From assembly GCA_036387335.1 (NCBI GenBank), contig DASVTZ010000105.1, positions 1 through 64,000 on the forward strand: DNA of 64,000 nucleotides. The letters run 5' to 3'. Below are positions 15,032 through 62,543 of the stretch, one piece after another. The notes under the pieces are model-generated. The model ran no database searches. It saw only the letters and a program-made list of their open reading frames with translations, and was not told the origin of the DNA. This DNA is from Longimicrobium sp. GTDB lineage: Bacteria > Gemmatimonadota > Gemmatimonadetes > Longimicrobiales > Longimicrobiaceae. Both the position numbers and the translations under genes were made by a program. Position 1 is the first letter of the stretch, and every line of letters starts with the position of its first letter.

Positions 15032-15064
15032 TTTCTTTGCGCCTTCGCGCCTTTGCGTGAGACC
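15032..15064 (+). repeat. R1 repeat, solitary right half
   Basis: TTCTTTGCGCC...CTTTGCGTGAGACC matches the right arm of the outer R1 module (the TTTGCG variant). No left arm is present. It begins 4 bp after a stop codon and runs into the leader of the next gene. Confidence 0.75.
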
Positions 15065-15088
15065 ATCTCCTCCCCGCCGGATCACCTG

Positions 15089-15610
15089 ATGCCTCTCTTC
15101 CGGTACTTGTGGTTTTTTTGCGCAGCCGTGATGCTGGCGAACGTCCTGCTGTGGCGGCGGCGTTTGCGCAGGCTCGTGGACGCCGGAACGATGACGAAGC
15201 GGGAGCTGGATGGCTTCCTCAAGGGCGCGGCGCTCCTGCTGGTCGGCGCGCCCGTTCTGCTGGGCGTTATCGGGCTGGTGGCGGGATGGTCCGACCCGTT
15301 CTGCGCCGGCGCGTTTTCCTTTGATGGCCCCGCACGTGCCGCCAACTCCCTGGTGACCCTCGGAACCTGGGCGGCCGGCCTCTGGTGGGTGTGGATGGGG
15401 AACGGCGCGGACGTGCTTGGGCGCGTCGCTCCGGCTCTGAGCAGCCGTCCGAGGTACGACCGGCGCTACTCGCCGCGCCTCGTGAAGCTGGCGACGACCG
15501 GCCTGGTACTGTTATGCGGCATCGGCTTCGCGATGGGGTATCGGGACGTGCCCAGGACTGCTGACGGATGCCTGCTGATTGAGCAGCCTCGCCCACCCAG
15601 CGGACCGTAG
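15089..15610 (+). CDS. hypothetical membrane protein
   Basis: The family is not recognised. This 173-residue protein has four hydrophobic segments: 'YLWFFCAAVMLANVLLW', 'GAALLLVGAPVLLGVIGLVA', a Trp-rich segment 'TWAAGLWWVWMGN', and 'TTGLVLLCGIGFAMGY'. The ATG at 15089 was chosen over one at 15053, which lies in an R1 repeat half. Confidence 0.6.
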   Translation: MPLFRYLWFFCAAVMLANVLLWRRRLRRLVDAGTMTKRELDGFLKGAALLLVGAPVLLGVIGLVAGWSDPFCAGAFSFDGPARAANSLVTLGTWAAGLWWVWMGNGADVLGRVAPALSSRPRYDRRYSPRLVKLATTGLVLLCGIGFAMGYRDVPRTADGCLLIEQPRPPSGP

Positions 15611-15754
15611 ACGCACCCGCGCTTCCGGCCCAACGAGGGACGGCCGCGCCTCGTGCGAGTGGCGGCGATGCCTTATACTTCGCGGCGCTGGCTCCCCTAG
15701 CTTCACGCTCGCCGCGGCTCCGAGTAGTCCCTCCCCCACAGGTTGCTGGTGCTG

Positions 15755-16204
15755 ATGAATCGCCTCTCGCCCGTGCGCCCGGTATCGGCGGTTTGCCTGG
15801 CCGTGCTCCTGGGTGCATGTCACCTGTCGCCACCGCGATCCACCCCCTCGCGCGCCGGAAAGCCACAGCCGGACGTGCTCGCCGCGTCCTCTCGTCCGCG
15901 CTCGGCGCGCGACGTACTTACCGAAGCGGAGATCAGGGCCGCGAACGCCAGCGACGCCTTCGACCTCGTCCAGCGGCTGCGTCCGGCCTGGCTGCGGCAA
16001 AAGGGCGATGCATCGCAGATGGATGCGGACGGGTCGCGCGAGATCCGGGTGTGGGTGAACGGGCGCGATGCAGGGGGGCTCGGCGCGCTGCGGGATTACG
16101 ACTCCAACCAGATCGTATCCATGCGCTGGGTCGACTCCATCAGCGCGCGCGCCACGTATGGCCGGGGGTACGGCCGCGGCGTCATCACCATCGAGACGCG
16201 ATGA
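15755..16204 (+). CDS. free-standing TonB-plug-like lipoprotein
   Basis: This 149-residue lipoprotein (signal 'AVCLAVLLGACHLS', lipobox LGAC) has a mature domain 'DVLTEAEIRAANASDAFDLV ... RPAWLR ... IRVWVNGRDAGG ... DSISARATYGRGYG ... GVITIETR'. This resembles the plug of TonB-dependent receptors without a barrel. Many Gemmatimonadota encode such stand-alone lipoproteins; their role is not established. A TTG at 15743 would add four residues. It is transcribed on its own, 144 bp after the previous gene. Confidence 0.72.
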   Translation: MNRLSPVRPVSAVCLAVLLGACHLSPPRSTPSRAGKPQPDVLAASSRPRSARDVLTEAEIRAANASDAFDLVQRLRPAWLRQKGDASQMDADGSREIRVWVNGRDAGGLGALRDYDSNQIVSMRWVDSISARATYGRGYGRGVITIETR

Positions 16205-16241
16205 AGCCGTTCCCCACCCCGCGCTCAGCGCCGGCACCGCG

Positions 16242-16655
16242 ATGAACCTGAACCAGGTCACCCTTCCCGCGCTCGACGTGGCGACATCGGCGGCGTTCTA
16301 CCGGTCGATGGGCTTCCGGCAGATCGTGGCGACGCCCGCCTACGCGCGCTTCGAGTGCAGCGACGGCGGGGCCACCTTTTCGGTTCACGCGGTGAAAGCC
16401 GTGCCCGCGGACACCGGCGTCGTCGTCTACTTCGAGCACGAGGAGCTGGACGCCCTGGTGAACGAGCTGAAGGCCAAAGGTATCGAGTTCACGCAGGACC
16501 CCACGGACCAGCGCTGGCTCTGGCGCGAGGCGCGGCTCCTCGACCCCGCCGGCAACGTGATCTGCCTCTACTGGGCCGGCGGAAACCGCCGCAACCCGCC
16601 CTGGCGCATCGGCGATCCCACCTTCCGGCCCGCCCGGCGGGGCGCGGCGCGGTAG
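16242..16655 (+). CDS. VOC family (glyoxalase/dioxygenase fold) protein
   Basis: This 137-residue protein has the paired beta-alpha-beta-beta-beta units of the vicinal oxygen chelate fold: 'NQVTLPALDVATSAAFYRSM' at the start and 'REARLLDPAGNVICLYWAG' at the end, with the usual D-P-x-G-N turn and a Glu on a strand ('YFEHEEL'). Members include metal-dependent lyases, dioxygenases and drug-binding resistance proteins. The ligand here is unknown. It precedes the MqsA-like gene by about 20 bp. Confidence 0.85.
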   Translation: MNLNQVTLPALDVATSAAFYRSMGFRQIVATPAYARFECSDGGATFSVHAVKAVPADTGVVVYFEHEELDALVNELKAKGIEFTQDPTDQRWLWREARLLDPAGNVICLYWAGGNRRNPPWRIGDPTFRPARRGAAR

Positions 16656-16675
16656 GGTCTTCAGTGGAATCGCGA

Positions 16676-17095
16676 ATGGAGTGCCCGGTGTGCGGGGGCG
16701 AAGCGCGTCTGGTGAGTGAGCCCAGGAGGGTGGCCGGCGCGCCGCTCGGCACGGTCGCACAGGATGATTTCTATCGTTGCGAGCAGTGCGGAGAGACGTT
16801 CTACACGCCGGGGATGATGGACGCGAGCCTCCGCGCGGAGGCAGACGCCCTCCGCAACGCGAACCAGTTCCTGTCTCCGGCGGAGGTGAAGGAGATCCGG
16901 GGGCGGCTCGGCCTTACGCAGCCCGAGTTCGAGCGCCTCCTCGGGGTCGGGAAGAACACGGTCGTCCGGTGGGAGCGCGGCACGGTTGCGCAGGGCGCCG
17001 CCGCGGATTCGCTCCTGCGCCTCGTCGCGCGCAGCGTGGATAATGCTCGCTATCTAGCGGAGCTGCACGGGGTTGAGCTGGCGGGTTCCTATTGA
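16676..17095 (+). CDS. MqsA/YgiT-type zinc-finger HTH antitoxin, orphan
   Basis: This 139-residue protein has an N-terminal zinc finger with two CxxC pairs ('MECPVCGGEA' and 'YRCEQCGETF') and a C-terminal XRE helix-turn-helix ('LGLTQPEFERLLGVGKNTVV'), the layout of MqsA (HigA2-like) antitoxins that bind DNA and neutralise MqsR-type RNases. No MqsR or RelE gene precedes it; the upstream gene is a VOC protein. It may be an orphan antitoxin or a plain regulator. A GTG at 16664 is an alternative start. Confidence 0.82.
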   Translation: MECPVCGGEARLVSEPRRVAGAPLGTVAQDDFYRCEQCGETFYTPGMMDASLRAEADALRNANQFLSPAEVKEIRGRLGLTQPEFERLLGVGKNTVVRWERGTVAQGAAADSLLRLVARSVDNARYLAELHGVELAGSY

Positions 17096-17121
17096 GCGCA
17101 CCCGGTATGTGACTGCTCCGC

Positions 17122-19782
17122 CTAATCCGCACGGAGCGCCGCCGCGGGGGTGACGGCGAGGGCGCGGCGGGCGGGGAGCAGCATCGCCGCGCCGGCCACG
17201 AGGGCGAAGCATGCGATGGCCGCCGCCAGCGCGCGCAGCTCGATCACGGCGCCGACGGGGAGCGAAGTGGCGATCACCCTACCCATGAGCAGGCTCAGCG
17301 CGACGCCGGCCACACCGCCGATGGCGGTGAGGCGGATGCCCTGCCGCAGCACCAGACCCACGATGCTGGAGCGTCCGGCTCCGAGCGCCGCGCGGATGCC
17401 GATCTCGCGGCTGCGCTGCGCCGTCACGAACGCCACCAGCCCCGACAGCCCGGCGACGGCAAGCACCATCTGCAGCAGCGCGAGGACGCCGGACGCGCGC
17501 GCCGCGATGCGCTGCGGCAGGAAGGCGCGGTCCATGTAGCTGCTCATGGTGGTGACCTCCGGGGCCACCATCTGCGCGTTGTAGCGGCGCAGCTCGCGCG
17601 CAACGGGGGCGGCCAGCGCGCTCGCCGACCCGCCCGCGCGAAGGTGCAGCACCAGCGAGCCGCCGCCCGCCTGGAGCGGCAGGTAGAGCAGCCCCTCGCC
17701 CGGCGACTCCTTCCCCATCTCACCCACGAGCCCCACGACCTCCACGTCGGCGCCGGCGGCATCGACTTGCAGCCGCTTGCCGATGGGGTCGCTTCCGGGC
17801 CAGAGCCGCTCCGCCAGTGCCGTGCTGACGATGGCCACGCGCGCGCTTCCGCCCATCTCCCCCTCGCTGAAGTCGCGGCCGCGCACCAGCGGCAGCCCCA
17901 CTACTTCGAAGAAGCGCGGGCGCACCAGGTTCATGTCCACGGAGCGGCTGCCGCCCGCCTCACGCGTGTCGCGCGGTACGACGCTGGTGGTGGAACGCGA
18001 GCCTGAAAGCGGTACCATCATGGCCGCGCTCGCCGCCTCGATGCCGGGAATCCCGTCGAGTTGGGCGATGACGTCGCGGACGAGCGCCGACGCGCGTACC
18101 GAGTCGCCCGCCGCCTGCAGCAGCGTGGCGGGCGCCACCAGGACGCCGGAAGCGTCGACGCGCCGGTCCTCCGCCAGACGCCTGAACGCGGAGGCGATCA
18201 GCACCGATCCGGCCGTGAACATCAGCGACAGGGCGACCTGCGTCACGACGAGCCCGCCCCGCACCCGCCCTGTCTGGATGCCGAGGCTCCCCGCGTAGCC
18301 GCCGTCCTTGAGGTACGACAGCACGTCCGTGCGCGCGCTCTGGATGGCCGGGACGAGCCCGAACACCAGCAGCGCGACCAGCGTCCCTCCCGCGGTGAAG
18401 AGCAGCGCGCGGCCGTCAAGCGAGAGGTCCACGTTGGGGAACCCGTCCGGCCGGTAGCGCCCGACGGCCACCGAGGTCGCGTAGGCGAGCGCGATGCCGA
18501 GCAGCGCGCCCGGGACCGCCACCACCGCGCCCTCGGTGAGAAGCTGGCGGATCAGCCGACCCCTTCCCGCGCCGAGCGCCAGCCGCGTCGCGATCTCCCG
18601 CCGGCGGGCGAGGGCGCGCGCCATGTACAGGCTCGCAAGGTTGGCGCTTGCAACTAATAGGAAACCGAGCCCCAGTGCGGTCACGCCGCCCACCATCATC
18701 AGGAGCTGGCCTGGCGCGATCCCGGCTACGCGTGATTCGCGCTCCAGCATCACGGTCACGCGGCGGCCGTGCCCCGCCTCCTCGCGCCAGCTCGCAGGGT
18801 CATCCTGGTACAGCCGCGCCGCGACGGTGGCGAGCCTCGCCCGCAGCTCCGCCATCGACGCGCCCTCGCGCAGCCGCCCGACGATCTGGAAGCGCCGGTT
18901 GCCGCGCTGGTCCAGCACGGGCTCGCCGGGAAGGAGCATCGGTGCAAAGGCAGCGTCGACCCAGAACTCGTTCGCGAACTCGCGCGTGATCCCCAGGAAT
19001 TCGCGCGGGGCCACGGCGGCGACGCGGTAGAAGTGGCCGTTGACGCTCACCGTCTTGCCGACCACCGAAGGATCCGCACCGAAGGCGCGCTGCCACACGG
19101 TGTAGCCGAGCACGATCGCCGGCTCGTCGGCGCGCGCGCCCGCGGGGAAGCGCCCCAGCGCCGGCTTCACGCGCAACGCGGCGAAGTACCCGGAGCTCAC
19201 CAGCGCGCCTCGCCGCATCGCCGTGTCGTCGCCGCTGCCGACCGCGGCTGCCACGCCCGACTCGCCCGCGAGCTCCGCGATGCCGCTCGTGCCCGCCGCG
19301 AAGTTGAGCAGGTCCGCGTGCGAGCTGCCACCGAGCAGCTCGCCGCCGTAGTCGCTCGTGTACACCGCCACCAGGTCCCGGCCGCCCGGCACGGGGAGCG
19401 GCCGGTAGAAGAAGCCATCCACCGCCGAGAAGAGCGACGTCCCCACTCCGATGGCAATCCCCAGCGTCACCACGCAGACCGCCACGAATCCGGGCGTCCG
19501 CGCCAGCGAGCGCGCGGCGTAGCGCACGTCGATCAGCGCGTCCTCCACTAAGCGTGTGCCGCGCGCGTCGCGGTGATCCTCGCTGATCCGGTCCACGCCT
19601 CCGAAGACGAGCCGCGCCGCCCGCCGCGCCTCGTCGGGCGACATTCCGGCGCGGATGTTCTTCTCCGTCTCCATCTCGAGGTGGAACTGGATCTCTTCGC
19701 TGAGGCGCGCCTCCACCTCACCGCGGCGGAAGAGGGCACGGTACCGGCCGCGCAGCAGGGCGAGCAGGGCCTTGGAATGCAT
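17122..19782 (-). CDS. ADOP family FtsX/MacB-type permease 1
   Basis: This 886-residue inner-membrane protein contains two MacB-PCD/FtsX units. The N-terminal cytoplasmic segment 'FHLEMETEKNIRAGMSPDEA' is the lead-in typical of ADOP permeases, followed by a first membrane helix 'VAVCVVTLGIAIGVGTSLFS'. FtsX-type cores recur in the middle and at the C-terminus ('RSREIGIRAALGAGRSSIVG'). No ATPase is encoded nearby, as is usual for this acidobacterial-style family. It forms an operon with the PadR gene (10-bp gap). The transported substance is unknown. Confidence 0.9.
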   Translation of the reverse strand: MHSKALLALLRGRYRALFRRGEVEARLSEEIQFHLEMETEKNIRAGMSPDEARRAARLVFGGVDRISEDHRDARGTRLVEDALIDVRYAARSLARTPGFVAVCVVTLGIAIGVGTSLFSAVDGFFYRPLPVPGGRDLVAVYTSDYGGELLGGSSHADLLNFAAGTSGIAELAGESGVAAAVGSGDDTAMRRGALVSSGYFAALRVKPALGRFPAGARADEPAIVLGYTVWQRAFGADPSVVGKTVSVNGHFYRVAAVAPREFLGITREFANEFWVDAAFAPMLLPGEPVLDQRGNRRFQIVGRLREGASMAELRARLATVAARLYQDDPASWREEAGHGRRVTVMLERESRVAGIAPGQLLMMVGGVTALGLGFLLVASANLASLYMARALARRREIATRLALGAGRGRLIRQLLTEGAVVAVPGALLGIALAYATSVAVGRYRPDGFPNVDLSLDGRALLFTAGGTLVALLVFGLVPAIQSARTDVLSYLKDGGYAGSLGIQTGRVRGGLVVTQVALSLMFTAGSVLIASAFRRLAEDRRVDASGVLVAPATLLQAAGDSVRASALVRDVIAQLDGIPGIEAASAAMMVPLSGSRSTTSVVPRDTREAGGSRSVDMNLVRPRFFEVVGLPLVRGRDFSEGEMGGSARVAIVSTALAERLWPGSDPIGKRLQVDAAGADVEVVGLVGEMGKESPGEGLLYLPLQAGGGSLVLHLRAGGSASALAAPVARELRRYNAQMVAPEVTTMSSYMDRAFLPQRIAARASGVLALLQMVLAVAGLSGLVAFVTAQRSREIGIRAALGAGRSSIVGLVLRQGIRLTAIGGVAGVALSLLMGRVIATSLPVGAVIELRALAAAIACFALVAGAAMLLPARRALAVTPAAALRAD

Positions 19783-19792
19783 GGGGCGCCTC

Positions 19793-20128
19793 TCAGGTGG
19801 TTCGGAGGATCAGCTCGACGGCGCGGGCGTAGCTGCGCCACCCCGCCATCTCCACTTCGAGCTGCTCGTGGCCGAGCGGGGTCAGGCTGTAGTACCGGGC
19901 GCGGCGGTTGTTCTCCGTCACCCCCCACTCGCTCGAGATCAGCCCCCGGTCTTCCAGCCGCAGCAGCGCGGGGTACACGGATCCCTGCCCCACGTCGAGG
20001 GCGTTGCGCGACATCTCCTGGATGCGCTGCGCGATCCCCCAGCCGTGCATCGGCTGCAGCGCCAGCGTCTTTAGCACCAGGAGATCGAGCGTCCCCTGCA
20101 GGATGTCAGCCGAGCTGTTTCGCGGCAT
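19793..20128 (-). CDS. PadR family regulator 1
   Basis: This 111-residue winged-helix repressor is the standalone short PadR form. Key segments: 'ILQGTLDLLVLKTLALQPMH', 'GWGIAQRIQEMS', 'GSVYPALLRLEDRGLISSEW' and 'ENNRRARYYSLTPLG'. The ATG at 20128 matches the 111-residue length of the two paralogues in this window. It is the first gene of the operon with ADOP permease 1 and probably represses its own promoter, which carries two operator-like repeats. Confidence 0.93.
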   Translation of the reverse strand: MPRNSSADILQGTLDLLVLKTLALQPMHGWGIAQRIQEMSRNALDVGQGSVYPALLRLEDRGLISSEWGVTENNRRARYYSLTPLGHEQLEVEMAGWRSYARAVELILRTT

Positions 20129-21272: not shown

Positions 21273-21348
21273 TCACGCGAAGGCGCGAAGACGCGAAGGA
21301 AAGACACGGAAATCCTTTCTTTGCGCCTTTGCGGCTTTGCGTGAGACC
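21273..21348. repeat. R1 repeat, outer module with both arms
   Basis: The left arm TCACGCGAAGGCGCGAAGAC... (21273-21303) and right arm CTTTCTTTGCG...GCGTGAGA (21315-21346) are imperfect inverted repeats that would form a long hairpin. It lies 31 bp after the Excalibur gene. Confidence 0.75.
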
Positions 21349-21372
21349 ATTTCCCCCGATGCACGCGAAAAA

Positions 21373-21401
21373 GGAGGCACGGAGAATCTCTCCGTGCCTC
21401 C
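21373..21401 (-). terminator. Rho-independent terminator of response regulator gene
   Basis: A perfect 13-bp stem (GGAGGCACGGAGA paired with TCTCCGTGCCTCC) with a 3-nt loop. On the minus strand it is followed directly by TTTTT (21372-21368), so it terminates transcription leaving the response regulator gene, which ends at 21462. Confidence 0.8.
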
Positions 21402-21426
21402 ACCCAAATGCGGATCGAGCGCTTTT

Positions 21427-21455
21427 CTCAGCGCCTCCGCGTCTCCGCGTGAGCC
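21427..21455 (+). repeat. R1 repeat, solitary right half
   Basis: CTCAGCGCCTCCGCG...CCGCGTGAGCC is an R1 right arm (CTCCGCG variant) without a partner. It lies 7 bp past the stop of the minus-strand response regulator. Confidence 0.7.
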
Positions 21456-22056: not shown

Positions 22057-22125
22057 CCTCACACAGAGACACAGAGGGGTACGAAAAGGAGGAAAGAAAG
22101 GATCTCTGTGCCTTGCTGTTCTCGC
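22057..22125. repeat. R1 repeat, degenerate inner module
   Basis: CCTCACACAGAGACACAGAG on the left and GATCTCTGTGCC... on the right are the two arms of the inner R1 module, with a purine-rich centre. It lies in the 270-bp gap between the divergent response regulator and membrane protein genes. Confidence 0.65.
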
Positions 22126-23724: not shown

Positions 23725-23760
23725 TCTCACGCGGAGGCGCGGAGACGCGAAGAGAGAAAA
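23725..23760. repeat. R1 repeat, solitary left half
   Basis: TCTCACGCGGAGGCGCGGAG followed by ACGCGAAGAGAGAA is an R1 left arm. It begins 10 bp after the kynA stop and ends at the next gene's start region. Confidence 0.72.
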
Positions 23761-24851: not shown

Positions 24852-24985
24852 CCTCACACCGAGACACAGAGCCACAGAGAGAACCGCCAAAGGTTTTCTC
24901 TGTGGCTTTCTGTTCCCTCTGTGCCCTCTGTGTGAGGCTGTTCTTCTGTTGTTCTCTCTGCGTCTCCGCGCCTCCGCGTGAGACC
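24852..24985. repeat. R1 repeat, inner module plus outer right arm
   Basis: CCTCACACCGAGACACAGAG, then a palindromic middle (AGAGAGAACCGCC/AAAGGTTTTCTCTG), then ...CTCTGTGTGAGG complete the inner module. It is followed by the outer right arm TCTCTGCGTCTCCGCG...GTGAGAC. It sits between two convergent genes, 16 bp after one stop and 6 bp from the other. Confidence 0.8.
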
Positions 24986-35197: not shown

Positions 35198-35290
35198 CCT
35201 CACACAGAAAAGAGACACAGAGGAAACAGCAAGAACGGCAAAGGGCGTCCTCTGTTGCCTTGCAGTGCCCTCCGCGTTCTTTGGGAGACG
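35198..35290. repeat. R1 repeat, degenerate composite
   Basis: CCTCACACAGAAAAGAGACA at the left, TCCTCTGTTGCC in the middle and a decayed right arm (CCCTCCGCGTTCTTTGGGAGAC) mark an old R1 copy, 12 bp after the oxidoreductase stop. Confidence 0.6.
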
Positions 35291-35980: not shown

Positions 35981-36103
35981 TCTCACGCGGAGGCGCGGAG
36001 AGAACTGCACCTGCTTGGCTCACACAGAGCCACAGAGCCACAGAGAGAACCGCAAAAGGTTTTCTCTGTGGCTTTCGGCTCCTTCTGTGTACTCCGTGTG
36101 AGC
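35981..36103. repeat. R1 repeat, outer left arm plus inner module
   Basis: TCTCACGCGGAGGCGCGGAG is followed by AGAACTGC, then CTCACACAGAGCCACAGAG... and the palindromic AAAGGTTTTCTCTGTGGCTT, ending CTCCGTGTGAGC. It ends 12 bp before the PadR2 operator. Confidence 0.78.
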
Positions 36104-36190: not shown

Positions 36191-36526
36191 ATGGCCCCTC
36201 GAAGCCAGACCGACGCGCTACGTGGCTCGCTCGACCTCCTGATCCTCAAGACGCTCTCGCTGGAGCCGATGCACGGCTGGGGAATCAGCCAGCGCGTGCA
36301 GCAGATCTCGCGCGGGGTGCTGGAGGTGAACCAGGGCTCGCTCTACCCCGCGCTCCAGCGGCTGGAGAAGGAAGGGGTGATCGCAAGCGGCTGGGGAACC
36401 AGCGAGAACAACCGCCGCGCCCGCTACTATGAGATCACCCCCGCAGGCCGCCGCGCCCTCGGCACCGAGCTGGAGAGCTGGAAGCGCTTCGCCGCGGCCC
36501 TCGATCTCGTGCTCGAAAGTGCCTAG
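36191..36526 (+). CDS. PadR family regulator 2
   Basis: This 111-residue winged-helix repressor is closely similar to the other two in the window: 'LRGSLDLLILKTLSLEPMHG', 'NQGSLYPALQRLEKEGVIAS', 'SENNRRARYYEITPAGRRAL'. It is the first gene of an operon with ADOP permease 2 (78-bp gap) and is preceded by two operator-like repeats. Its last codons and stop lie inside a TAGTGCC-type repeat. Confidence 0.93.
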   Translation: MAPRSQTDALRGSLDLLILKTLSLEPMHGWGISQRVQQISRGVLEVNQGSLYPALQRLEKEGVIASGWGTSENNRRARYYEITPAGRRALGTELESWKRFAAALDLVLESA

Positions 36527-36582
36527 TGCCTGGTGCCTAGTTCTGAACCGCGGTTACTGAGCACTTGGCACTTAGCACTATC
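36518..36582. repeat. TAGTGCC-type imperfect inverted repeat
   Basis: Tandem AGTGCCTAGTGCCTGGTGCC on the left and AGCACTTGGCACTTAGCACT on the right are inverted copies of a TAGTGCC/GGCACTA unit around a short centre (AACCGCGGTT, itself palindromic). It supplies the PadR2 stop codon and fills the PadR2-ADOP2 gap. Confidence 0.7.
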
Positions 36583-36604
36583 CCTTCCGCAATCATATCC
36601 CAAT

Positions 36605-39235
36605 ATGAAATCGATCATCGCCCGGCTGCGGCTGCTCCGCCGCAGCGAGGCCGAGGAGCGCATGGAGGACGAGATGCGCTTCCACCTGGAGATGGAGACC
36701 GAGAAGCTCATCCGCGAGGGGGTGAGCCCCGCGGAGGCACGGCGCAGGGCGCGGGTGGCGTTCGGCGGGGTGGAGGGGCACAAGGAGGCGATGCGCGACG
36801 GGCGCACCTTTGCCTGGATGGGCACCCTGTCGCTCGACGCGCGGCTCGGGCTGCGGCTGCTGGTGCGGCACCGCGGTCTGGCGCTCATCGGCGGCTTCGC
36901 CATGGCGACGGCGATCGCGGTGGGTTCGGTGACCTTCGAGGCCCTTTCGCAGGTTCTGCGCGGCACCCTTCCGTTGGACGAGGGCGATCGGGTGGTCGCG
37001 GTCCACTGGTTCTCGGACAGCACGGAGAGCGCCGAGCGGCAGGTGCTGCACGACTTCGCGGAGTGGCGCGGCGGGCTGCGCACCGTGCGGGAGCTGGCCG
37101 CGTTCCGCACCGTGGAGCACAACCTGATGTCCGTGGCGGGCGACCCGCTCCCCGTGGCGGTGGCTGAGATGACCGCGTCGGGGTTCCGCGTAGCCCGCAC
37201 GCCGCCGCTGCTGGGGCGCTACCTGGTGCCGGAGGACGAGCGCCCCGGCGCGCCCGCGGTGGTGGTGATCGGCCACGAGGCGTGGCGCACCCGCTTCGCC
37301 GCCGACCCGCGCATCGTGGGGCGCACCGTGCGGCTCGGCTCCACGCCGCACGTTGTGGCGGGGGTGATGCCGGAGGGGTTCCGCTTCCCCTACGACCACC
37401 AGTACTGGGTGCCGCTGCGCGAGAGCCCGCTGGCGCACGCCCGGCTGGAGGGGCCGTGGCTGTACGTGTTCGGGCGGCTGGCGCCCGGCGCATCCCTCGC
37501 CGAAGCACGGGCCGAGCTGGCGACGGTCGGGCGGCGCACGGCGGCGGCGCACCCCGGGATGTACGACCGGCTCCGGCTCACGGCGATCCCCTTCACCTAC
37601 GACCAAATGGACCTGCAGAGCCCCACGATGCGGCTGGCACTACGCGCGGTGCAACTGCTGGTGGGCGGGCTGCTGGTGGTGGTGGCGGTGAATCTGGCCG
37701 TGCTGCTGTACGCCCGCACCGTGTCGCGCCTGGGCGAGATCGCCGTCCGCAGCGCGCTGGGCGCCAGCCGACGCCGCATCCTGGCGCAGCTCTTCATGGA
37801 GGCGCTCGCCCACTCGGTGCTGGGCGCGCTGGTGGGGCTGGTGGTGGCGAACGGGGTGCTCCGCATGACGCGGCGCTGGATCGCCGCGGCGGGAGGGGGG
37901 AATGGCCTTCCGTTCTGGGTAGACCTGCGCCTGTCGCCCGCCACGGTAGCGTACGCGCTGGCGCTGGCGGCGGTCGCCGCCTTCATCATGGGCGTGCTCC
38001 CCGGCCTCAAGGCGACCGGCGACGGGATGCAGGCCAACCTGCGCGAGCTGCGCTCCGGTCCGCGCCTGGGGCCCGTCTGGAGTGGGCTGATCGTGGCGCA
38101 GGTGGCGTTCGCCATGGCCGTGCTGCCGCCCGCCGTCTACGCCGTGTGGCAGATCATGCGCATGGAGACGGCCAAGATCGGGTTCGCGCCGGACGAGTTC
38201 GTGGTGGGGCAGGTGGAGCTGGGCGAGCCGCCCGCGGGGCTGGACTCGGCCGGGGTGGCGGCGCGCAACGCCTCGCGGCGTACGGCGCTGATGGCGAGGC
38301 TGGCGGCGGAGCCCGGGGTCACCGCCGTCGCCCTTGCATCCTTTGTCCCCGGCCTGGACGAGCCCACCCAGGACGTGGAGATCGACGGTGCCGCCGGGCC
38401 GCAGCAGGGCGCGAGCGCCATCCGCACAACGCCGGAGCTGTTCGGTACGTACGGCGCGCGCATCGCCGAGGGGCGCGCGCTGGCCGAGGGCGATGCGGAC
38501 GCCGTGGTCGTCAACCGCACCTTTGTGCGGCGCCACCTGGGGAACCGCGGCGCCGTGGGCCAGCGGCTGCGCTACAGGAAGGCGGATGGGCCGGGCCGCT
38601 GGTACGAGATCGTCGGCGTGGTGGAGGACTTCCCCGCGGTGCCGCTCGTGATCACCTCGGCGAACGGGGTGGCCAACGTGTACCACGCCGCCCTGCCGGG
38701 CGACGTCCCCGACCCTACCCTCTCGGTGCGCCTGCGCGGCGGGATCCCCGCGGGATTCGTGAGGCGCGTGCAGCGGCTGGGCGTGGAGGTCGATCCCGAG
38801 CTGCAGCTGGGCGTGCGCCCGCTGGCGGAGGTATACGCCTCCGTCCGCTCCTTCTCGCGCTTCATGTCCTGGGCGCTCGCGCTGGTCACGGGGAGCGTGC
38901 TCCTCCTTTCCGCGGCGGGGATCTACGCGCTGATGTCGTTCACCGTGGTCCAGCGCACCCGCGAGATCGGCATCCGCACCGCGCTGGGGGCACAGCCGCG
39001 GCGCATCGTGGCGAGCATCTTTGCGCCGGTGGGGCGCAGGCTGGCCGTGGGCGTGGCGATCGGCGGGGTGCTGGCGGGGGGCATCACCGCCGGCGCGGGC
39101 GTAAGCATGGGGCGGGCCGCACCGCTGATGGCTGCCGTCTGCGCCATCATGCTGGGCGTGGGGCTGCTGGCGGTGCTGGGGCCCGCGCGGCGCGGCCTGC
39201 GCATCCAGCCCATGGAGGCGCTGCGGGAGGCCTGA
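36605..39235 (+). CDS. ADOP family FtsX/MacB-type permease 2
   Basis: This 876-residue membrane protein has the same layout as the other two ADOP permeases. The N-terminal helix 'MEDEMRFHLEMETEKLIREG' is followed by a membrane helix, a large periplasmic MacB-PCD domain ('GYRVARTP..GRYLVPEDE'-type region), central membrane helices, a second periplasmic domain, and three C-terminal helices with 'RTREIGIRTALGAQPRRIV'. No ATPase is nearby. The start at 36605 excludes 24 upstream codons that lie in the TAGTGCC repeat. Confidence 0.9.
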   Translation: MKSIIARLRLLRRSEAEERMEDEMRFHLEMETEKLIREGVSPAEARRRARVAFGGVEGHKEAMRDGRTFAWMGTLSLDARLGLRLLVRHRGLALIGGFAMATAIAVGSVTFEALSQVLRGTLPLDEGDRVVAVHWFSDSTESAERQVLHDFAEWRGGLRTVRELAAFRTVEHNLMSVAGDPLPVAVAEMTASGFRVARTPPLLGRYLVPEDERPGAPAVVVIGHEAWRTRFAADPRIVGRTVRLGSTPHVVAGVMPEGFRFPYDHQYWVPLRESPLAHARLEGPWLYVFGRLAPGASLAEARAELATVGRRTAAAHPGMYDRLRLTAIPFTYDQMDLQSPTMRLALRAVQLLVGGLLVVVAVNLAVLLYARTVSRLGEIAVRSALGASRRRILAQLFMEALAHSVLGALVGLVVANGVLRMTRRWIAAAGGGNGLPFWVDLRLSPATVAYALALAAVAAFIMGVLPGLKATGDGMQANLRELRSGPRLGPVWSGLIVAQVAFAMAVLPPAVYAVWQIMRMETAKIGFAPDEFVVGQVELGEPPAGLDSAGVAARNASRRTALMARLAAEPGVTAVALASFVPGLDEPTQDVEIDGAAGPQQGASAIRTTPELFGTYGARIAEGRALAEGDADAVVVNRTFVRRHLGNRGAVGQRLRYRKADGPGRWYEIVGVVEDFPAVPLVITSANGVANVYHAALPGDVPDPTLSVRLRGGIPAGFVRRVQRLGVEVDPELQLGVRPLAEVYASVRSFSRFMSWALALVTGSVLLLSAAGIYALMSFTVVQRTREIGIRTALGAQPRRIVASIFAPVGRRLAVGVAIGGVLAGGITAGAGVSMGRAAPLMAAVCAIMLGVGLLAVLGPARRGLRIQPMEALREA

Positions 39236-39250: not shown

Positions 39251-39378
39251 CCTCACACAGAGAACACAGAGGGAACTACAAGCCACAGAGGAAGCCTTGA
39301 TCTGTTCTCTCTGTGTCTCTGTGTCTCTGTGTGAGCCATGCGGTTGCAGTTCCCTCCGCATCTCCGCGTCTCCGCCTA
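39251..39378. repeat. R1 repeat, inner module plus decayed outer right arm
   Basis: CCTCACACAGAGAACACAGA at the left and TCTCTGTGTCTCTGTGTGAG at the right frame the inner module. It is followed by TCCCTCCGCATCTCCGCGTC, a decayed outer right arm. It begins 16 bp after the ADOP2 stop. Confidence 0.78.
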
Positions 39379-43122: not shown

Positions 43123-43171
43123 AGTCACAGAGAACTCTTCTGCTTTCCTCTCTGTGGCTCTGTGTGAGGCC
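43123..43171. repeat. R1 repeat, partial inner module
   Basis: AGTCACAGAGAACTC at the left and CTCTGTGGCTCTGTGTGAGG at the right form a short inner module, 6 bp after the barrel gene stop and inside the gene cluster. Confidence 0.7.
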
Positions 43172-48818: not shown

Positions 48819-48829
48819 CCACCGCTTAT

Positions 48830-48975
48830 CTCACGCAGAGGCGCAGAGACGCAGGGAGAGAACAACAGAGAAAGCCACGCGGAAAACCTTTTGCGGTTCT
48901 CTCTGTGGCTCTGTGTCTCTGTGTGAGCCATGCCGTTGCGGTCCTCTCCTGCGTCTCTGCGCCTCTGCGTGAGAC
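48830..48975. repeat. R1 repeat, complete composite
   Basis: This is the clearest full copy: outer left arm TCTCACGCAGAGGCGCAGAG, inner palindrome (AAAACCTTTTGCGG), inner right arm TCTCTGTGTCTCTGTGTGAG, and outer right arm TGCGTCTCTGCGCCTCTGCG ending GTGAGAC. It sits between convergent genes, 12 bp after one stop and 11 bp from the other. Confidence 0.85.
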
Positions 48976-51267: not shown

Positions 51268-51404
51268 TCACGCAGGGGCCACAGGAAGGAACAGAAAGCC
51301 ACAGAGCAAACCTTGCGGTTCTCTCTCTGTGGCTCTGTGTCTCTGTGTCTCTGTGTGAGCCCTGCAGGTGCGGTTCTCCCGCGCCTCCGCGTCTCCGCGT
51401 GAGC
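51268..51404. repeat. R1 repeat, composite
   Basis: A decayed outer left arm (TCACGCAGGGGCC), inner right arm TCTGTGTCTCTGTGTCTCTG...TGAGCC and outer right arm CGCGCCTCCGCGTCTCCGCG ending GTGAGCC. It ends 17 bp from the stop of minus-strand ADOP permease 3. Confidence 0.78.
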
Positions 51405-51420: not shown

Positions 51421-54141
51421 CTACTCCGCCCGCAACGCCTCGCTGGGCTGCACGCGCAGGGCACGGCGGGTGGGCACCACGCAGGCGAGCATGCAGATGG
51501 CCAGCATGACCAGCGCGTTGGCCACGAGCAGCGCAATGTTCCCCATCGTCAGGGCCGCGTCGGGATCCCGGGGCGCGCCGTCGGGACGGTGGCCGACCGC
51601 GATGTACGCGGCGGCCGTCACCAGGATGAACCCGACCGTGATGCCGGCGCCCACCTGCGTGAGCGGCTTGCGGAAGATGGCGGCGACGACGCGCGCGCGC
51701 GGGGCACCCAGCGCCACGCGCACGCCGATCTCGCGCGTCCGCCGCGCCACCGTGAACGACAGCACCGCGTAGATGCCGGCCAGCGAGAGCAGGAGCACGA
51801 CCCCGGTCAGCAGGAGCGTGATCTTGAACCACATGCCGAGGATCCAGAGGTTGGCGCTGGTCACCTGGTCCACGGGCTGGAGCTCCGTGAGCCGCAGCAT
51901 GGGGTCCACCTCAGCGGCGATCTCGCGGATGCGCGGGGCCAGCGACATCGGGTCGCCCGGCACGTGGACGATCATGTTGAGCGGCAGCTCGCGGCCCGGA
52001 GCGGCCGGCAGGTACACCCCCGCCGCGCGATCGTCGTCGTACGCGGAATTCATCCCGAGATCCCTGACGACGCCGACGATCTCGTACCACGGGGCGGAGG
52101 GTTCGGGGGTCTGCTCGCCGCGCTTCAGGAAGCGCAGGTGCCGGCCCACCGGGCTGCGCCCCCGCAGCATGCGGTCGACGAATCCCTGGTCCACGATCAC
52201 CACGTGCGCGTCGGGCCCCAGATCGGCGGCGCCGAAGCCGCGGCCAGCCATGACCGGCGCCTTCAGCACGTCGAAGTACGAGGGATCGACGGCCGCGGTG
52301 CGCACCACCGGGTTGGCCAGCGGCGGGCCGGCCGCCGCCGAGGGGCCGGAGGGGGCGTCCAGCTCGATCCGCCGCCCGTTGTGGTGGTCGAGCGGCACGG
52401 CGTCCACGAAGGTGGCGCCCGCGACGCCGGGCTCCGCCTCCAGGCGCTGGCGCAGCGTCCCCACCGCCGCCGCGAAGCGGGCCATCTGCGCGGCCGTGTC
52501 CGCGCCCACCTCGGAGTCCAGCTGCACCCTCAGGTACTCGCCGGACGCGAACCCCGGGTCGAGCGAGCGCACCCGCGCCGCCTCCCGCTGCACCGTGAAG
52601 GTGACCGCCGGAAAGGCGACCGTGAGCGCGACCTGCGTGACGATCACCGCCGTCCACACGCCGCCGAACCGCACCCCGCCGCCCCCGCCCGTGCCCTGCT
52701 TCAGCCGCGAGCCCAGGCCGCGCGTGATCTTGCGCGCGGGCACCATGCCGGCGATGGCGGCGCCCAGCAGGGTGAGCGCGCAGGCGTAGAGCACGGTGCC
52801 GGGCGTCAGGTTCAGGTTGAACCAGAAGGGGAGCGCCCCCAGGTTGCGCTCCAGGAACTCGACGCCCCAGTCGCGGAGCGCGAGCTGCGCCAGGGCCAGC
52901 CCCACCACGGCCGCTACGGCGCCCAGCACCAGCGCCTCGGCCACGAGCTGCGCCACGATGCGGCCGCGGGTGGCGCCCAGCGCGCTGCGCACCACCAGCT
53001 CGGACTCGCGCCCGGCCGCGCGCGCAAAGAGCAGCAGCGCCACGTTTGAGCAGATGACGACCAGCAGCATCACGGCGAACACGTTGAACGACCCCATGAG
53101 GGCCATGTCGTCCATGGATGCGGTGGCCGGGTCCGTGTAGCGCGCGACTCGCGGCTGCAGGTGGCGGTGCGTGTCCGGCCGCTCGGCGGCGGCGCGGCGG
53201 CCCATGGCGGCCAGCTCCGTCTGTGCCTGCTGGATGGTGACGCCCGGCGCAAGGCGGCCGAAGACCTGAATGGCCGGCCCCTCGCGCGGCGCGGGGACGA
53301 TGGCGTCCGGCCTGAACGGCGTCCACAGCTCGTGCGCCACGGGGAAGGCGAAGCCTTCCGGCATCACACCCACCACCGTCGCCTGCGTGTCGCCGAGCCG
53401 CACGGTGCGGCCCACGATGCCGGCGTCGCCCGCGAAGCGCGTCCGCCACACCTCGTAGCCAAGCACGGCCACCGGCGCCGCGCCCGGCCGCTCGTCGCCC
53501 GGCACCAGCGCGCGGCCCAGGAGCGGCGCCTCAGGGGCGATGCGGAACGCCGACGCGCTGATCTCCGCCCCCCGCAGCGGGCGCCCCGCCTCGCTGCCGG
53601 CGATCAGGTTGATGGAGATCTCGCGGTAGGCGCCGAGATCGGCCACCGAGCGCAGGCCGCCGCGCCACGCGAGGAAGTCGCTCAGCGCGCGCGGCTCCTC
53701 CTCGTTCGCCGCTGCGTCCCAGTTGCGGATGCGCACGATGCGCTCGGCGTGCGGAAGGGGGAGCGTCGGATTCAGGAACTGGTTGACGAGCACGAACGTG
53801 ACGGATCCGGCCCAGATGGCGAACGCCATCGCCAGCCCGCCGACGATCGTGAGGCCGGGGTACTTCACCAGCATCCGGAAGCCGAGCTTGAAGTCGAGCG
53901 AGAGGCCGCTGAGCCACGCCAGCCCCCGCCCGTCGCGCAGCGCCTCCTTGTGCCCCTCCACCCCGCCGAACGCCACCAGCGCCCGCCGCCGCGCCTCCAC
54001 CGGCTCCAGCCCCTCCTCGCGGACGAGCCGCTCCGTCTCCATCTCGATGTGGAAGCCGATCTCCTCGTCCATCCGCTCCTCGGCCGCGCGCCGCCCGAAC
54101 AGCAGGGCGAGGCGCGCGCGGATTCCATCGATCCATCTCAT
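51421..54141 (-). CDS. ADOP family FtsX/MacB-type permease 3
   Basis: This 906-residue membrane protein is built like the other two: 'MDEEIGFHIEMETERLVREE' at the N-terminus, a membrane helix 'GLAMAFAIWAGSVTFVLVNQ', two MacB-PCD periplasmic domains, and FtsX-type cores ('RTREIGVRVALGAPRARVV' near the C-terminus). It is most similar in layout to permease 2, including 'VAFGGVEGHKEALRDGR'. It lies in an operon with PadR3 (34-bp gap). No ATPase is nearby and the substrate is unknown. Confidence 0.9.
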   Translation of the reverse strand: MRWIDGIRARLALLFGRRAAEERMDEEIGFHIEMETERLVREEGLEPVEARRRALVAFGGVEGHKEALRDGRGLAWLSGLSLDFKLGFRMLVKYPGLTIVGGLAMAFAIWAGSVTFVLVNQFLNPTLPLPHAERIVRIRNWDAAANEEEPRALSDFLAWRGGLRSVADLGAYREISINLIAGSEAGRPLRGAEISASAFRIAPEAPLLGRALVPGDERPGAAPVAVLGYEVWRTRFAGDAGIVGRTVRLGDTQATVVGVMPEGFAFPVAHELWTPFRPDAIVPAPREGPAIQVFGRLAPGVTIQQAQTELAAMGRRAAAERPDTHRHLQPRVARYTDPATASMDDMALMGSFNVFAVMLLVVICSNVALLLFARAAGRESELVVRSALGATRGRIVAQLVAEALVLGAVAAVVGLALAQLALRDWGVEFLERNLGALPFWFNLNLTPGTVLYACALTLLGAAIAGMVPARKITRGLGSRLKQGTGGGGGVRFGGVWTAVIVTQVALTVAFPAVTFTVQREAARVRSLDPGFASGEYLRVQLDSEVGADTAAQMARFAAAVGTLRQRLEAEPGVAGATFVDAVPLDHHNGRRIELDAPSGPSAAAGPPLANPVVRTAAVDPSYFDVLKAPVMAGRGFGAADLGPDAHVVIVDQGFVDRMLRGRSPVGRHLRFLKRGEQTPEPSAPWYEIVGVVRDLGMNSAYDDDRAAGVYLPAAPGRELPLNMIVHVPGDPMSLAPRIREIAAEVDPMLRLTELQPVDQVTSANLWILGMWFKITLLLTGVVLLLSLAGIYAVLSFTVARRTREIGVRVALGAPRARVVAAIFRKPLTQVGAGITVGFILVTAAAYIAVGHRPDGAPRDPDAALTMGNIALLVANALVMLAICMLACVVPTRRALRVQPSEALRAE

Positions 54142-54175
54142 GGGGGTGCTCCAGGGGGGTGTTTGCGGGGGTCGA

Positions 54176-54511
54176 TCAGGAGGTGCGGAGCACGGCTTCG
54201 AGGCCGGCGGCGAACTTCCGCCAGCTCTCCAGCTCGGTGCCGAGCGCGCGGCTGCCGGCGGCGGTGAGGTGGTAGTAGCGGGCGCGGCGGTTGTTCTCCG
54301 TCACGCCCCACTCGCTCGTGATGAAGCCATCCTTCTCCAGCCGCTGCAGCGCCGGGTAGAGCGACCCCTGGTTCACCTCGAGCACTCCCTGCGTGATCTG
54401 CTGCACGCGCTGGCTGATCCCCCACCCGTGCATCGGCGCCAGGGAGAGCGTCTTGAGTACGAGCAGGTCGAGCGAGCCCCGGAGGGCGTCGATGTGCGGG
54501 CGTGGAGTCAC
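54176..54511 (-). CDS. PadR family regulator 3
   Basis: This 111-residue winged-helix repressor closely resembles PadR2: 'LRGSLDLLVLKTLSLAPMHG', 'NQGSLYPALQRLEKDGFITS', 'TENNRRARYYHLTAAGSRAL'. The GTG start at 54511 reproduces the 111-residue length of the paralogues. It is the first gene of the operon with ADOP permease 3. Confidence 0.92.
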   Translation of the reverse strand: MTPRPHIDALRGSLDLLVLKTLSLAPMHGWGISQRVQQITQGVLEVNQGSLYPALQRLEKDGFITSEWGVTENNRRARYYHLTAAGSRALGTELESWRKFAAGLEAVLRTS

Positions 54512-59042: not shown

Positions 59043-59116
59043 CCTCACGCGAAGGCGCAAAGGCGCAAAGAAAGGGCTTTCGTTTCTTTCCTTGGCGTCT
59101 CCGCGCCTTTGCGTGA
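59043..59116. repeat. R1 repeat, outer module with both arms
   Basis: The left arm CCTCACGCGAAGGCGCAAAG and right arm TTGGCGTCTCCGCGCCTTTG...GTGA are imperfect inverted repeats (CGCAAAG variant). It lies 34 bp upstream of the polB start rather than after a stop. Confidence 0.75.
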
Positions 59117-59224
59117 CATCCTGTTCCTTGCGTTGAAGGTAAGGCGATGGCGTGCGTTGCGGGAGCGGCCGCGGGGCAGCGCTGTTGACCTGCTTTGTAT
59201 TGTAGAGTACTTTGATTACAAGCT

Positions 59225-60357: not shown

Positions 60358-60375
60358 ACTTAACCGAGGTTCATC

Positions 60376-61194: not shown

Positions 61195-61269
61195 CGGCGC
61201 CTGCACCCTCGCTTGACTCCCTCCCGCGCCATTCGTACACTTTCCGCCCGAACCCCGGCCGAAGGTGAG

Positions 61270-61683
61270 ATGAACGTCGACCTGAACGAGCTGCGGCGGC
61301 TGCGCAGGGCCCGCGACCGGATGGACCGCGAGTACGCGAAGCCGCTCGACGTGCCGGCGCTGGCCCGCACGGCGCTGATGTCCACGGCGCACTTCAGCCG
61401 CCGCTTCCGCGAGGCGTACTCCGAGACGCCGTACGGGTACCTGATGACGCGGCGCATCGAGCGGGCGAAGGCGCTGCTCCGCCGAGGCGACCTGAGCGTG
61501 ACGGCCGTCTGCTTCGAGGTCGGCTGCACGAGCCTCGGCTCCTTCTCCGCCCGCTTCACCGAGCTGGTGGGCGAGACGCCGTCCAGCTACCGCGCTCGCA
61601 GCCACGACGAGCTGCGCGCCGTCCCCACTTGCCAGACGATGGTGGTCACCCGCCCGCGCAAGCGCGAGGACGCGGCGAAGTGA
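61270..61683 (+). CDS. AraC family regulator, DNA-binding domain only
   Basis: This 137-residue protein consists of a double helix-turn-helix of the AraC/XylS family: 'LDVPALARTALMSTAHFSRR', 'TPYGYLMTRRIERAKALLRR', 'VTAVCFEVGCTSLGSFSARF', 'TPSSYRARS'. There is no effector domain. The ATG at 61270 follows GAAGGTGAG. It is 88 bp upstream of a VOC gene and probably regulates it. Confidence 0.92.
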   Translation: MNVDLNELRRLRRARDRMDREYAKPLDVPALARTALMSTAHFSRRFREAYSETPYGYLMTRRIERAKALLRRGDLSVTAVCFEVGCTSLGSFSARFTELVGETPSSYRARSHDELRAVPTCQTMVVTRPRKREDAAK

Positions 61684-61771
61684 GCAGTTTTCGAGAAGCG
61701 ATCCCCGCCGCACCCGCTTAGCTTCAACGCCATCACCGTTTCAGCAAAGCATCCCCACCAAGCGAGGTGCC

Positions 61772-62176
61772 ATGCCCGTATCACTCAGCGCCGTCCACGT
61801 CCTGGTCGACGACCCCGACGCCGCGCTCGTTTTCTACCGCGACACCCTGGGCCTGACGGTGCGCGACGAGGTGGCCCACGGCGGATTCCGCTGGATCACC
61901 CTTGCCACCGAGAGCCAGCCAGAGATCAAGATCGTACTCTCGCAGCCGCACGCCGGCCGCTCCAAGCAGGATGGCGACGCCGTCGCGGCGCTGCTGGCCA
62001 AGGGTGAGCTGGGCGCGGTCTTCCTGCGCACCGACGACCTGAACGCCACCTTCGCCAGGGTCGCCGCCGCGCCGGGCGTGGAGGTGCTGGAGGAGCCCGC
62101 CGACCGCTTCTGGGGCGCCCGCGACGCCGCCGTGCGCGATCCCGCGGGCAACCTGGTGCGCATCGAGCAGGGCTGA
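61772..62176 (+). CDS. VOC family protein
   Basis: This 134-residue protein of the vicinal oxygen chelate fold has 'SAVHVLVDDPDAALVFYRDT', 'VRDEVAHGGFRWITL' and a C-terminal 'WGARDAAVRDPAGNLVRIEQ'. Such proteins pair with AraC regulators in many genomes and act as lyases or drug-binding proteins; the ligand is unknown. Its last 12 codons are duplicated 225 bp downstream. Confidence 0.88.
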   Translation: MPVSLSAVHVLVDDPDAALVFYRDTLGLTVRDEVAHGGFRWITLATESQPEIKIVLSQPHAGRSKQDGDAVAALLAKGELGAVFLRTDDLNATFARVAAAPGVEVLEEPADRFWGARDAAVRDPAGNLVRIEQG

Positions 62177-62187
62177 GAACCGCATTG

Positions 62188-62318
62188 CCTCACGCGGAGG
62201 CGCGGAGACGCAGAGAGAACAGCACGAGTTTTTCTCTGTGGCTTGTAGTTCCCTCTGTGTTCTCTGTGTGAGGCTTTTCGGGGTTCTTTCTCTGCGCCTC
62301 CGCGTCTCCGCGTGAGAC
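62188..62318. repeat. R1 repeat, complete composite (copy in duplication unit 1)
   Basis: Outer left arm CCTCACGCGGAGGCGCGGAG, inner part AGTTTTTCTCTGTGGC...TGTGTGAGG, outer right arm TCTCTGCGCCTCCGCGTCTC ending GTGAGAC. It begins 12 bp after the VOC stop. Confidence 0.85.
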
Positions 62319-62412
62319 TTCCTTTTTTGGATCTACGATGAGCGAGCCCATGCAGCCGCACGCCGCCCGCGGGCAAGCTGGTGCGCATCGAGCAGGGCTG
62401 AGAACCGCATTG

Positions 62413-62543
62413 CCTCACGCGGAGGCGCGGAGACGCAGAGAGAACAGCACGAGTTTTTCTCAGTGGCTTGTAGTTCTCTCTGTGTTCTCTGTGTGAGGCT
62501 TTTCGGGGTTCTTTCTCTGCGCCTCCGCGTCTCCGCGTGAGAC
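62413..62543. repeat. R1 repeat, complete composite (copy in duplication unit 2)
   Basis: It is nearly identical to 62188-62318, with substitutions such as CAGTGGCTTG for CTGTGGCTTG. It ends 22 bp before the start codon of the UvrA-like gene. Confidence 0.85.

Follow-up and report, generated by a model that had tools for sequence, protein, structure and literature searches.

Intergenic palindromic repeats in Longimicrobium and other bacteria are associated with genes for predicted GxxExxY nucleases

The 64-kb stretch of DNA analyzed here (the window; G+C 70%) belongs to the draft genome of a Longimicrobium sp. (G000; 265 contigs, 5.82 Mb) and carries many copies of R1, a short intergenic palindrome. 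Genes of the GxxExxY family, whose products are predicted to be small nucleases, are often framed by arms consisting of approximately three tandem 7–11-nt units, and gene-less palindromes made of the same units are dispersed in many of the same genomes. That R1 and GxxExxY are associated is, in our judgment, close to certain. We propose, with a probability of roughly two-thirds, that R1 elements are non-autonomous intergenic palindromes and that their partner is the GxxExxY nuclease, which would drive them. Our findings suggest that the spread or maintenance of such repeats in many bacterial groups is due to this nuclease rather than to a transposase. Repeats were analyzed using pattern searches and counts of paired structure positions.

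GxxExxY genes framed by inverted repeats

In a genome from a sister genus (G158), 51 matches to the R1 arm yield 19 pairs less than 600 bp apart, 18 of which are gene-less. The remaining pair, 532 bp apart, encloses the only GxxExxY gene found in that genome (L084/L201), which matches the profiles TIGR04256 (E = 6.1e-40) and PF13366 (PDDEXK_3; E = 1.7e-39) and scores 136.2 bits against a cut-off of 35. By eye, the ends of this gene-bearing element match the 76-bp palindromes of the same genome, including the inner GAACGGCAGGAG, and the gene-less palindromes resemble its two ends joined without the gene. One GxxExxY gene was also found in G000, outside the window (G000:C29:40388-40735, L093; 143.3 bits). 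It is framed by R1 arms in the GAAG/CAAAG style, which is seen at window sites 15031, 21273, and 59043.

Could the gene-less copies instead be miniature inverted-repeat transposable elements (MITEs) of an undetected DDE transposon that shares R1 ends? Their inverted arms, gene-less interior, and ends with a degenerate conserved extension would suit such elements. However, we recognized no target-site duplication beside them, and GxxExxY is the sole gene found between the close arm pairs of G158, although no search was aimed at DDE transposases. We consider a DDE transposon extremely improbable.

Framing is not confined to these two genomes. Within the phylum, inverted repeats scoring at least 16 flank 26 of 42 GxxExxY loci, versus 2 of 153 control positions. 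These loci, located by profile coordinates, comprise 30 loci plus 14 from the window's family, less L089 and L112, which were dropped, and with the decayed or partial L209 and L213–L216 left out. The family loci are mostly orthologs of one locus; without them, the result is 18 of 28. For named loci of many phyla, the corresponding figures are 45 of 75, versus 0 of 247 control positions; these loci are the best 80 of at least 590 stretches obtained by scanning 84,980 genomes, with 5 of the 80 dropped for short flanks. A flanking repeat of this strength was present at 10 of 20 further loci. When the upstream and downstream flanks of different named loci were paired, 22 of 225 pairs reached 16, because the motif itself is common to several phyla. 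According to their record titles, the named loci are from Proteobacteria, Chloroflexota, Cyanobacteria, Acidobacteria, Planctomycetota, Bacteroidota, Armatimonadetes, Nitrospinota, Cloacimonadota, and one archaeal metagenome-assembled genome. The cyanobacterial and archaeal loci fell below 16 (Stenomitos, 11.0; Methanothrix, 8.5), and a second cyanobacterial locus (L147) was unusable for this test. The R1 arm pattern itself is present on both sides of 18 of 44 GxxExxY loci and on at least one side of 24.

Repeat and gene also tend to be found in the same genomes. GxxExxY is present in 9 of the 11 arm-positive genomes of the phylum versus 40 of the 139 others (Fisher p = 0.00075), and in all 11 family genomes with at least 20 arm matches versus 4 of 10 (p = 0.0039); kinship is ignored in both comparisons, and one genome (G152) counts as GxxExxY-positive solely on account of decayed pieces that score under the family cut-off. 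Few plasmid records contain GxxExxY (3 of 72,556 at E ≤ 1e-15), and it was not detected in phages (0 of 50,697 records at E ≤ 1e-10). The available extracts of the open-licence literature contain no description of a partner repeat for GxxExxY and seldom name the family; in one extract it is named together with an adjacent gene for a reverse transcriptase (PMC8934634).

Separate arm sequences for separate paralogs

We examined seven GxxExxY loci in Gemmatirosa kalamazoonensis (G080), a member of the same class. Five are flanked by strong repeats, each of a different sequence; no strong flanking repeat was detected at L297 or L301. Although the CGCGGAG and CGCAGAGG arms are mutually alike, GGACTGAAGAA, ACAGGATG, and GGATCGA are unlike those and each other. 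Two of the units have no sequence relationship to CACAGAG, which makes it hard to explain the association of arm and gene by base composition. By eye, four of the five framed loci stand between two complete palindromes. The CGCGGAG-framed gene matches the profile only in two pieces and is therefore broken.

The same arms recur as dispersed sites. In 520 kb of G080, with the L100 locus masked and a cut of 31 bits (33 bits in the counts of resident-arm styles below), we counted 9 sites for CGCGGAG, 12 for CGCAGAGG, 6 for GGACTGAAGAA, 5 for ACAGGATG, and 0 for GGATCGA; reversed arms gave 0. Nine other genomes (1,178 kb in total) yielded no sites for GGACTGAAGAA or ACAGGATG, 2 for CGCAGAGG, and 29 for CGCGGAG. 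We also counted triple units in 18 genomes of named loci chosen by arm style, 16 with a clear style and 2 with another. For CACGGAG ×3, 137 of 138 hits fell in the six genomes whose GxxExxY arms bear that unit (reversed control, 1), and for CACAGAG ×3, 246 of 345 hits fell in its seven own-style genomes (reversed control, 6).

Two side observations concern genomes of this set. In the planctomycete genome that contains L129 (G181), contigs C1, C11, C92, C202, C230, and C490 start within approximately 60 bases of palindromes, which suggests that near-identical, recent copies broke the assembly. In the alphaproteobacterial genome that contains L158 (G173), contigs C128, C181, and C195 combine two styles, with CACGAAG palindromes beside or between CACAGAG arms.

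A resident gene with changing arms

Searches with tblastn, using neighbor queries from G158, found GxxExxY with the same neighbors in 10 family genomes (G000, G154, G151, G157, G155, G153, G156, G158, G032, and G162). Named by eye, these neighbors are QueG on one side and an AhpD-like protein and/or an aminotransferase (V) on the other; this arrangement is seen in several genera, and we know of no functional link between these neighbors and GxxExxY. The gene is mostly single copy in the family. The arms at this orthologous locus differ between genomes: they are of the GAAG/CAAAG style in G000, G154, and G151, CACAGAG in G157, and CGCGGAG in G158 and G156. Only a downstream palindrome is present in G153, G162, and at the second copy in G032, and in G155 palindromes lie on either side of the gene.

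In some genomes the dispersed copies follow the arms of the resident gene. The CACAGAG arms of G157 have 33 sites in 120 kb, versus 0 for CGCGGAG, CGCAGAG, and GAAG arms, and our G158 sample contains CGCGGAG-type sites and no CACAGAG ones. The samples of G155, G153, G032, and G065 hold 2 to 4 sites with the arms of their own gene.

Did the palindromes come first? If they spread by other means, GxxExxY could be a homing-type selfish nuclease gene that cuts them and is copied into them. The gene does occupy a palindrome loop or the space between two whole palindromes, and some homing enzymes have a PD-(D/E)XK fold, the fold predicted for GxxExxY. However, a homing gene is hard to square with its presence at one orthologous place in 10 family genomes, mostly in single copy, despite hundreds of palindromes, or with the finding that 4 of the 5 framed Gemmatirosa paralogs have a palindrome family of their own. 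We therefore regard a homing origin as unlikely.

The GxxExxY protein

By its modeled fold and D...ExK site, GxxExxY is predicted to be a family of small, stand-alone PD-(D/E)XK nucleases, and the framed gene is a member of the family (TIGR04256/PF13366) by profile matches over the curated cut-off. The AlphaFold2 model has a predicted local distance difference test score of 93.4 and a predicted template modeling score of 0.88. Its best fold match is SSO0001 (4ic1; Z 9.2, root-mean-square deviation 4.7, 103 aligned; Foldseek E = 1.2e-3), which we take to be a Cas4 protein. Further matches are the restriction-type 3ijm (Z 8.1) and BpuSI (7.7) and the Holliday junction resolvase Hjc (1gef, Z 6.5), where values below 8 may reflect a common arrangement only. 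Although Cas4/lambda-exonuclease-like nucleases thus provide the best match, other PD-(D/E)XK members are close and the subfamily is unsettled. A search of the PDB by sequence gave no match up to E = 1. D62, E72, and K74 are invariant in an alignment of 14 sequences. In an alignment of 66 sequences, which includes 47 of the 80 named loci, G22, G24, E27, Y30, K79, Y95, and N108 are invariant, and D67, E77, and Q91 are present in at least 90%.

Codon comparisons indicate that the gene is under purifying selection. Relative to G000, the ratio of nonsynonymous to synonymous substitution rates (dN/dS) is 0.11 for G154 and 0.16 for G151; the other ratios, with dS above 1, reach 0.27, and as dS mostly exceeds 1, most of these values are rough.

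Structure and genomic distribution of R1

Each R1 unit is a palindrome of approximately 60–150 bp in which an arm consists of about three tandem 8-nt motifs (CTCYGYGY on one strand), with GTGAG at the end. In G157, 15 of 17 parsed elements are 59–65 bp, that is, two 26-nt arms and a variable loop; in G158, 16 of 19 are 75–77 bp and have an orientable loop. Outside the arms, four genomes share a degenerate 12-nt extension that is A-rich, with G at −3 (70–89%) and C at −1 (75–95%). In the same four genomes we saw no target-site duplication and no conserved GTAG beside the arms, and the arms pair mutually over 26 bp.

Compensatory changes between arms, which the first-pass annotation of the window had put forward as a mark of a true palindrome family, were observed. 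In 15 G157 copies, 97.7% of arm-pair cells pair and both sides have changed at 5 of 26 pairs; this number was reached in 0 of 500 shuffles, and slid controls gave 0 to 1. The two arms of one G157 element are also more alike than arms of different elements (0.984 versus 0.946 after shuffling, with 0.971 the largest of 300 shuffles). This is the only clear signal of its kind. Own and shuffled identities are 0.692 and 0.687 in G000, where nested copies were mis-paired, and 0.655 and 0.661 in G154; the G158 value lies below its shuffled one (0.797 versus 0.853), with elements of both orientations left unoriented; and the G155 value of 0.879 exceeds the shuffled 0.719, yet shuffling within style gives 0.880. 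G151 and G153 had too few copies for this comparison.

The enrichment anticipated outside the window is present: CTCYGYGYCTCYGYGTGAG has 552 exact matches in the 5.82-Mb G000 genome, versus 0 for the pattern read backwards. A wider arm pattern is present in 11 of 150 genomes of the phylum, with from 2 (in a 76% complete genome) to 1564 matches within the genus, 90 in Gemmatirosa kalamazoonensis, 34 in G052, and 179 in G151 (86% complete). The suspicion that the family reaches other phyla also held up, since R1 has matches on plasmids of two other organisms, Nostoc sp. HK-01 (covering 22% of the query) and Candidatus Thiodictyon syntrophicum (covering 41%), and GxxExxY loci with such flanks occur in many phyla. 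The arm sequences themselves were not found in any of the open-licence papers searched.

Where the copies lie bears on whether they are host-functional hairpins, such as terminators or nucleoid or supercoiling sites, that are selected and are homogenized by ordinary recombination, with GxxExxY a housekeeping nuclease attracted to them. In samples of four genomes, with genes predicted by a codon-score caller, none of 73 R1 sites is inside a predicted gene (67 are between two genes and 6 are at stretch edges). Convergent gene gaps hold 11 of the 32 placed G000 sites and make up 18 of 94 gaps, and by eye several copies directly follow stop codons. All of this would suit such hairpins. However, a range of 2 to 1564 arm matches within one genus, together with turnover between relatives, argues against a host function, and paralog-specific units are hard to reconcile with a single one. 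We find this explanation improbable.

R1 and Y1 transposases

The first-pass annotation raised the possibility that R1 depends on a transposase of the kind that moves repetitive extragenic palindromic (REP) sequences, namely a REP-associated tyrosine transposase (RAYT). R1 elements would then be REPIN-like and would owe their movement to a Y1 transposase of the IS200/RAYT type. That R1 consists of short intergenic palindromes with inverted parts would suit such a system, and Y1_Tnp genes are at hand, with two in G000 (one with an internal stop), 39 matches in 33 genomes, and some in 9 of the 10 genomes of the genus. The dependence itself is not supported by our data. No R1-like arms were found within 400 bp on either side of the Y1_Tnp gene at any of the 21 loci examined, out of the 39 matches. 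R1-bearing G080, G052, and the less complete G151 (86% complete) have no Y1 hit, and G150 has 3 Y1 hits and 2 arm matches. We thus consider Y1-driven movement of R1 very improbable.

A different strong inverted repeat flanks 14 of the 21 examined loci (L003, L004, and L049–L067). It is long, contains hairpins (for example ...GGCAACAACNGCACAAAGTCCGCCTTCGCGGACT...), and recurs in the samples of G000, G157, and G158. As these 14 Y1 loci have this other recurrent repeat and none of the 21 has R1-like arms, a separate system coexists with R1 and is similar to terminal inverted repeats associated with a tyrosine transposase (TIRYT).

R1 copies in the window and their turnover

The first-pass annotation described approximately fourteen copies of one repeat type, and our count agrees: the arms group into 12 sites with 14 copies, far above chance. 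At up to three mismatches, the inner arm has 7 window matches (0 expected), the outer arm 11 (0.05 expected), and the CTTTGCG-type arm 5 (0.01 expected). A scan of the window against Rfam at gathering thresholds gave no match. The several styles reported for the outer module are also present, as CGCGGAG, CGCGAAG/CGCAAAG, and CGCAGAG arms, with CACAGAG as the style of the inner module. In G000, by eye, CGCGGAG-style arms often lie to the outside of a CACAGAG-style module, which contains a separate hairpin core, and the idea of exchangeable modules is supported.

Nested modules are present at the two places where they were reported. A full nested element at 48829–48974 has a CACAGAG-style inner module within CGCAGAG outer arms, and the matching gap in G154 holds another form. 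The second, with CGCGGAG outer and CACAGAG inner arms, occurs twice, at 62188–62317 and 62413–62542, as copies 1 and 2 of a 225-bp tandem duplication; the corresponding G154 gap has a CACAGAG palindrome. Besides the nested R1 element, this duplication (62188–62542) includes the end of the gene upstream and the beginning of the following one.

The remaining sites combine fewer parts. Simple palindromes of the GAAG/CAAAG style lie at 21273–21344 (72 bp; the orthologous place in G154 is also occupied) and at 59043–59118 (kept with changes in G154), and a single right arm of this style, which also frames the G000 GxxExxY gene, at 15031–15062 (plus strand). CACAGAG-style palindromes are followed by a CGCGGAG-style right arm at 24852–24983, by a decayed CGCGGAG right arm at 39252–39376, and joined with a CGCGGAG right arm at 51268–51404; at 35981–36103 a CGCGGAG left arm precedes the CACAGAG-style palindrome. 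Single CGCGGAG arms are a right arm at 21423–21454 (plus strand; common to G154), which with the palindrome at 21273 forms a site of two adjoining copies (21273–21454), and a left arm at 23725–23754 (minus strand). CACAGAG-style remains comprise a right arm at 43137–43169 (plus strand), a degenerate partial arm at 35198–35222 (minus strand), and a decaying element at 22057–22116 (minus strand), of which a fuller copy lies, by eye, at the matching place in G154. A small separate hairpin (GGAGGCACGGAGA/TCTCCGTGCCTCC) is present between two R1 copies at 21373–21401, in G154 as well.

G154 is 81–96% identical to G000 in collinear stretches. The sites at 21273, 21423, and 59043 are common to both genomes, and that at 22057 is common but decayed in G000. 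In the gaps at 48829, 51268, and 62188, by eye, both genomes have an element that differs in form, so that one style has replaced another at fixed places. Such replacement is compatible with gene conversion, which had been suggested along with sub-lineages to account for the styles, and it is to this extent that the suggestion stands. Between G000 and G154 plus G157, where intergenic DNA is strongly diverged, we recognized no clean empty sites or target-site duplications. Because of this divergence, and because the genomes carry different elements in several gaps, no element boundary is proven.

Three further regions of the window (19559–20116, 36203–38991, and 51674–54496) contain long, diverged direct and inverted repeats that resemble paralogous genes, presumably for large transporters or permeases.

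Discussion

If GxxExxY drives R1, how might it do so? The nuclease may recognize the arms, whether in duplex, hairpin, or cruciform form, and cut there. Through subsequent repair and recombination, palindromes could be copied to new intergenic positions and older copies overwritten, which would result in concerted evolution. The GxxExxY gene itself would remain a resident of the genome, much as RAYT genes do in REPIN systems.

Several observations weigh against this proposal. Insertion events were not observed, nor were target-site duplications or enzyme activity. There is no strong flanking repeat at 30 of the 75 named loci, and GxxExxY occurs without CTYY..GTGAG arms in 40 of 139 genomes. 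Conversely, G152 has GxxExxY remnants only, yet 275 arm matches, and GxxExxY is missing from G006, G137, G161, G165, and G167, which contain 1 to 4 arm matches each. The co-occurrence tests take no account of shared ancestry, and the roughness of most dN/dS values has been mentioned. With respect to specificity, CACAGAG ×3 is widespread beyond its own-style genomes, CACGAAG ×3 is unspecific (13 of 47 hits in own-style genomes; reversed control, 0), and a number of low counts (1 to 4) may reflect nothing beyond the gene's own arms. Arms of the resident gene are absent from the samples of G156, G162, G088, G127, and G135 (56 to 100 kb), and the L100 arm is absent from the first 120 kb of G080. 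In G000, the resident arm style is in the minority, with 6 sites in 222 kb versus approximately 18–20 for each of two other styles, in counts inflated by the preselection of some G000, G154, and G151 stretches for repeats. This mismatch is the main evidence against a simple model in which the current resident is the master. It fits a history in which, we infer, the resident arms were replaced and older palindromes persisted. The G000 sites common to G154 include two of the resident style (21273 and 59043), and for this reason that style is not obviously the most active.

By analogy, R1 and GxxExxY would work like a REPIN/RAYT pair. As in those systems, the repeats are high-copy, short, and intergenic, and the gene for the resident enzyme is kept in place and flanked by repeats. 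One report describes RAYTs as domesticated transposases that are single-copy and inherited vertically (PMC8049555), and another describes REPtrons as repeat-specific (PMC3733652). R1/GxxExxY is nevertheless no member of this class, because its enzyme is a predicted PD-(D/E)XK nuclease, not a Y1 HUH transposase, and the search for R1-like arms at Y1 loci was negative. Furthermore, the stems are approximately 26 bp and consist of tandem 7–11-nt units, and there is no GTAG tag of the kind that accompanies the 20–40-nt hairpins of REPs. The second report also describes TIRtrons, in which a gene lies within terminal inverted repeats that also occur as dispersed families (PMC3733652). The R1-framed gene likewise has dispersed inverted-repeat families, but TIRYTs and TIRtrons have Y1 transposases, and in this genus such a system is separate and has its own repeat. 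Also described there are CGTC-tagged REPs, dispersed palindromes with 8–9 bp stems for which no transposase was found (PMC3733652); R1 shares the dispersed palindromes without a found transposase, but has a stem of approximately 26 bp in place of the shorter stem and CGTC tag.

We judge the odds to be even that GxxExxY and its palindromes form an unrecognized, multi-phylum class of resident mobile repeats, in which a single small PD-(D/E)XK nuclease, unaided by a transposase or integrase, would recognize palindromes of tandem 7–11-nt units and, through cutting and repair, drive their multiplication and concerted evolution, paralogs would be unit-specific, and many bacterial intergenic repeats of the CACAGAG/CACGGAG/CGCGGAG type would be products of the system. 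In Gemmatirosa, five framed paralogs with five different arm sequences provide a ready specificity matrix. The association gives a testable role to GxxExxY, a common but little-studied family to which no function is assigned, and a candidate driver to a widespread class of unexplained intergenic repeats. If our proposal is true, REPIN-like repeat populations have arisen also with an enzyme unrelated to RAYT transposases.

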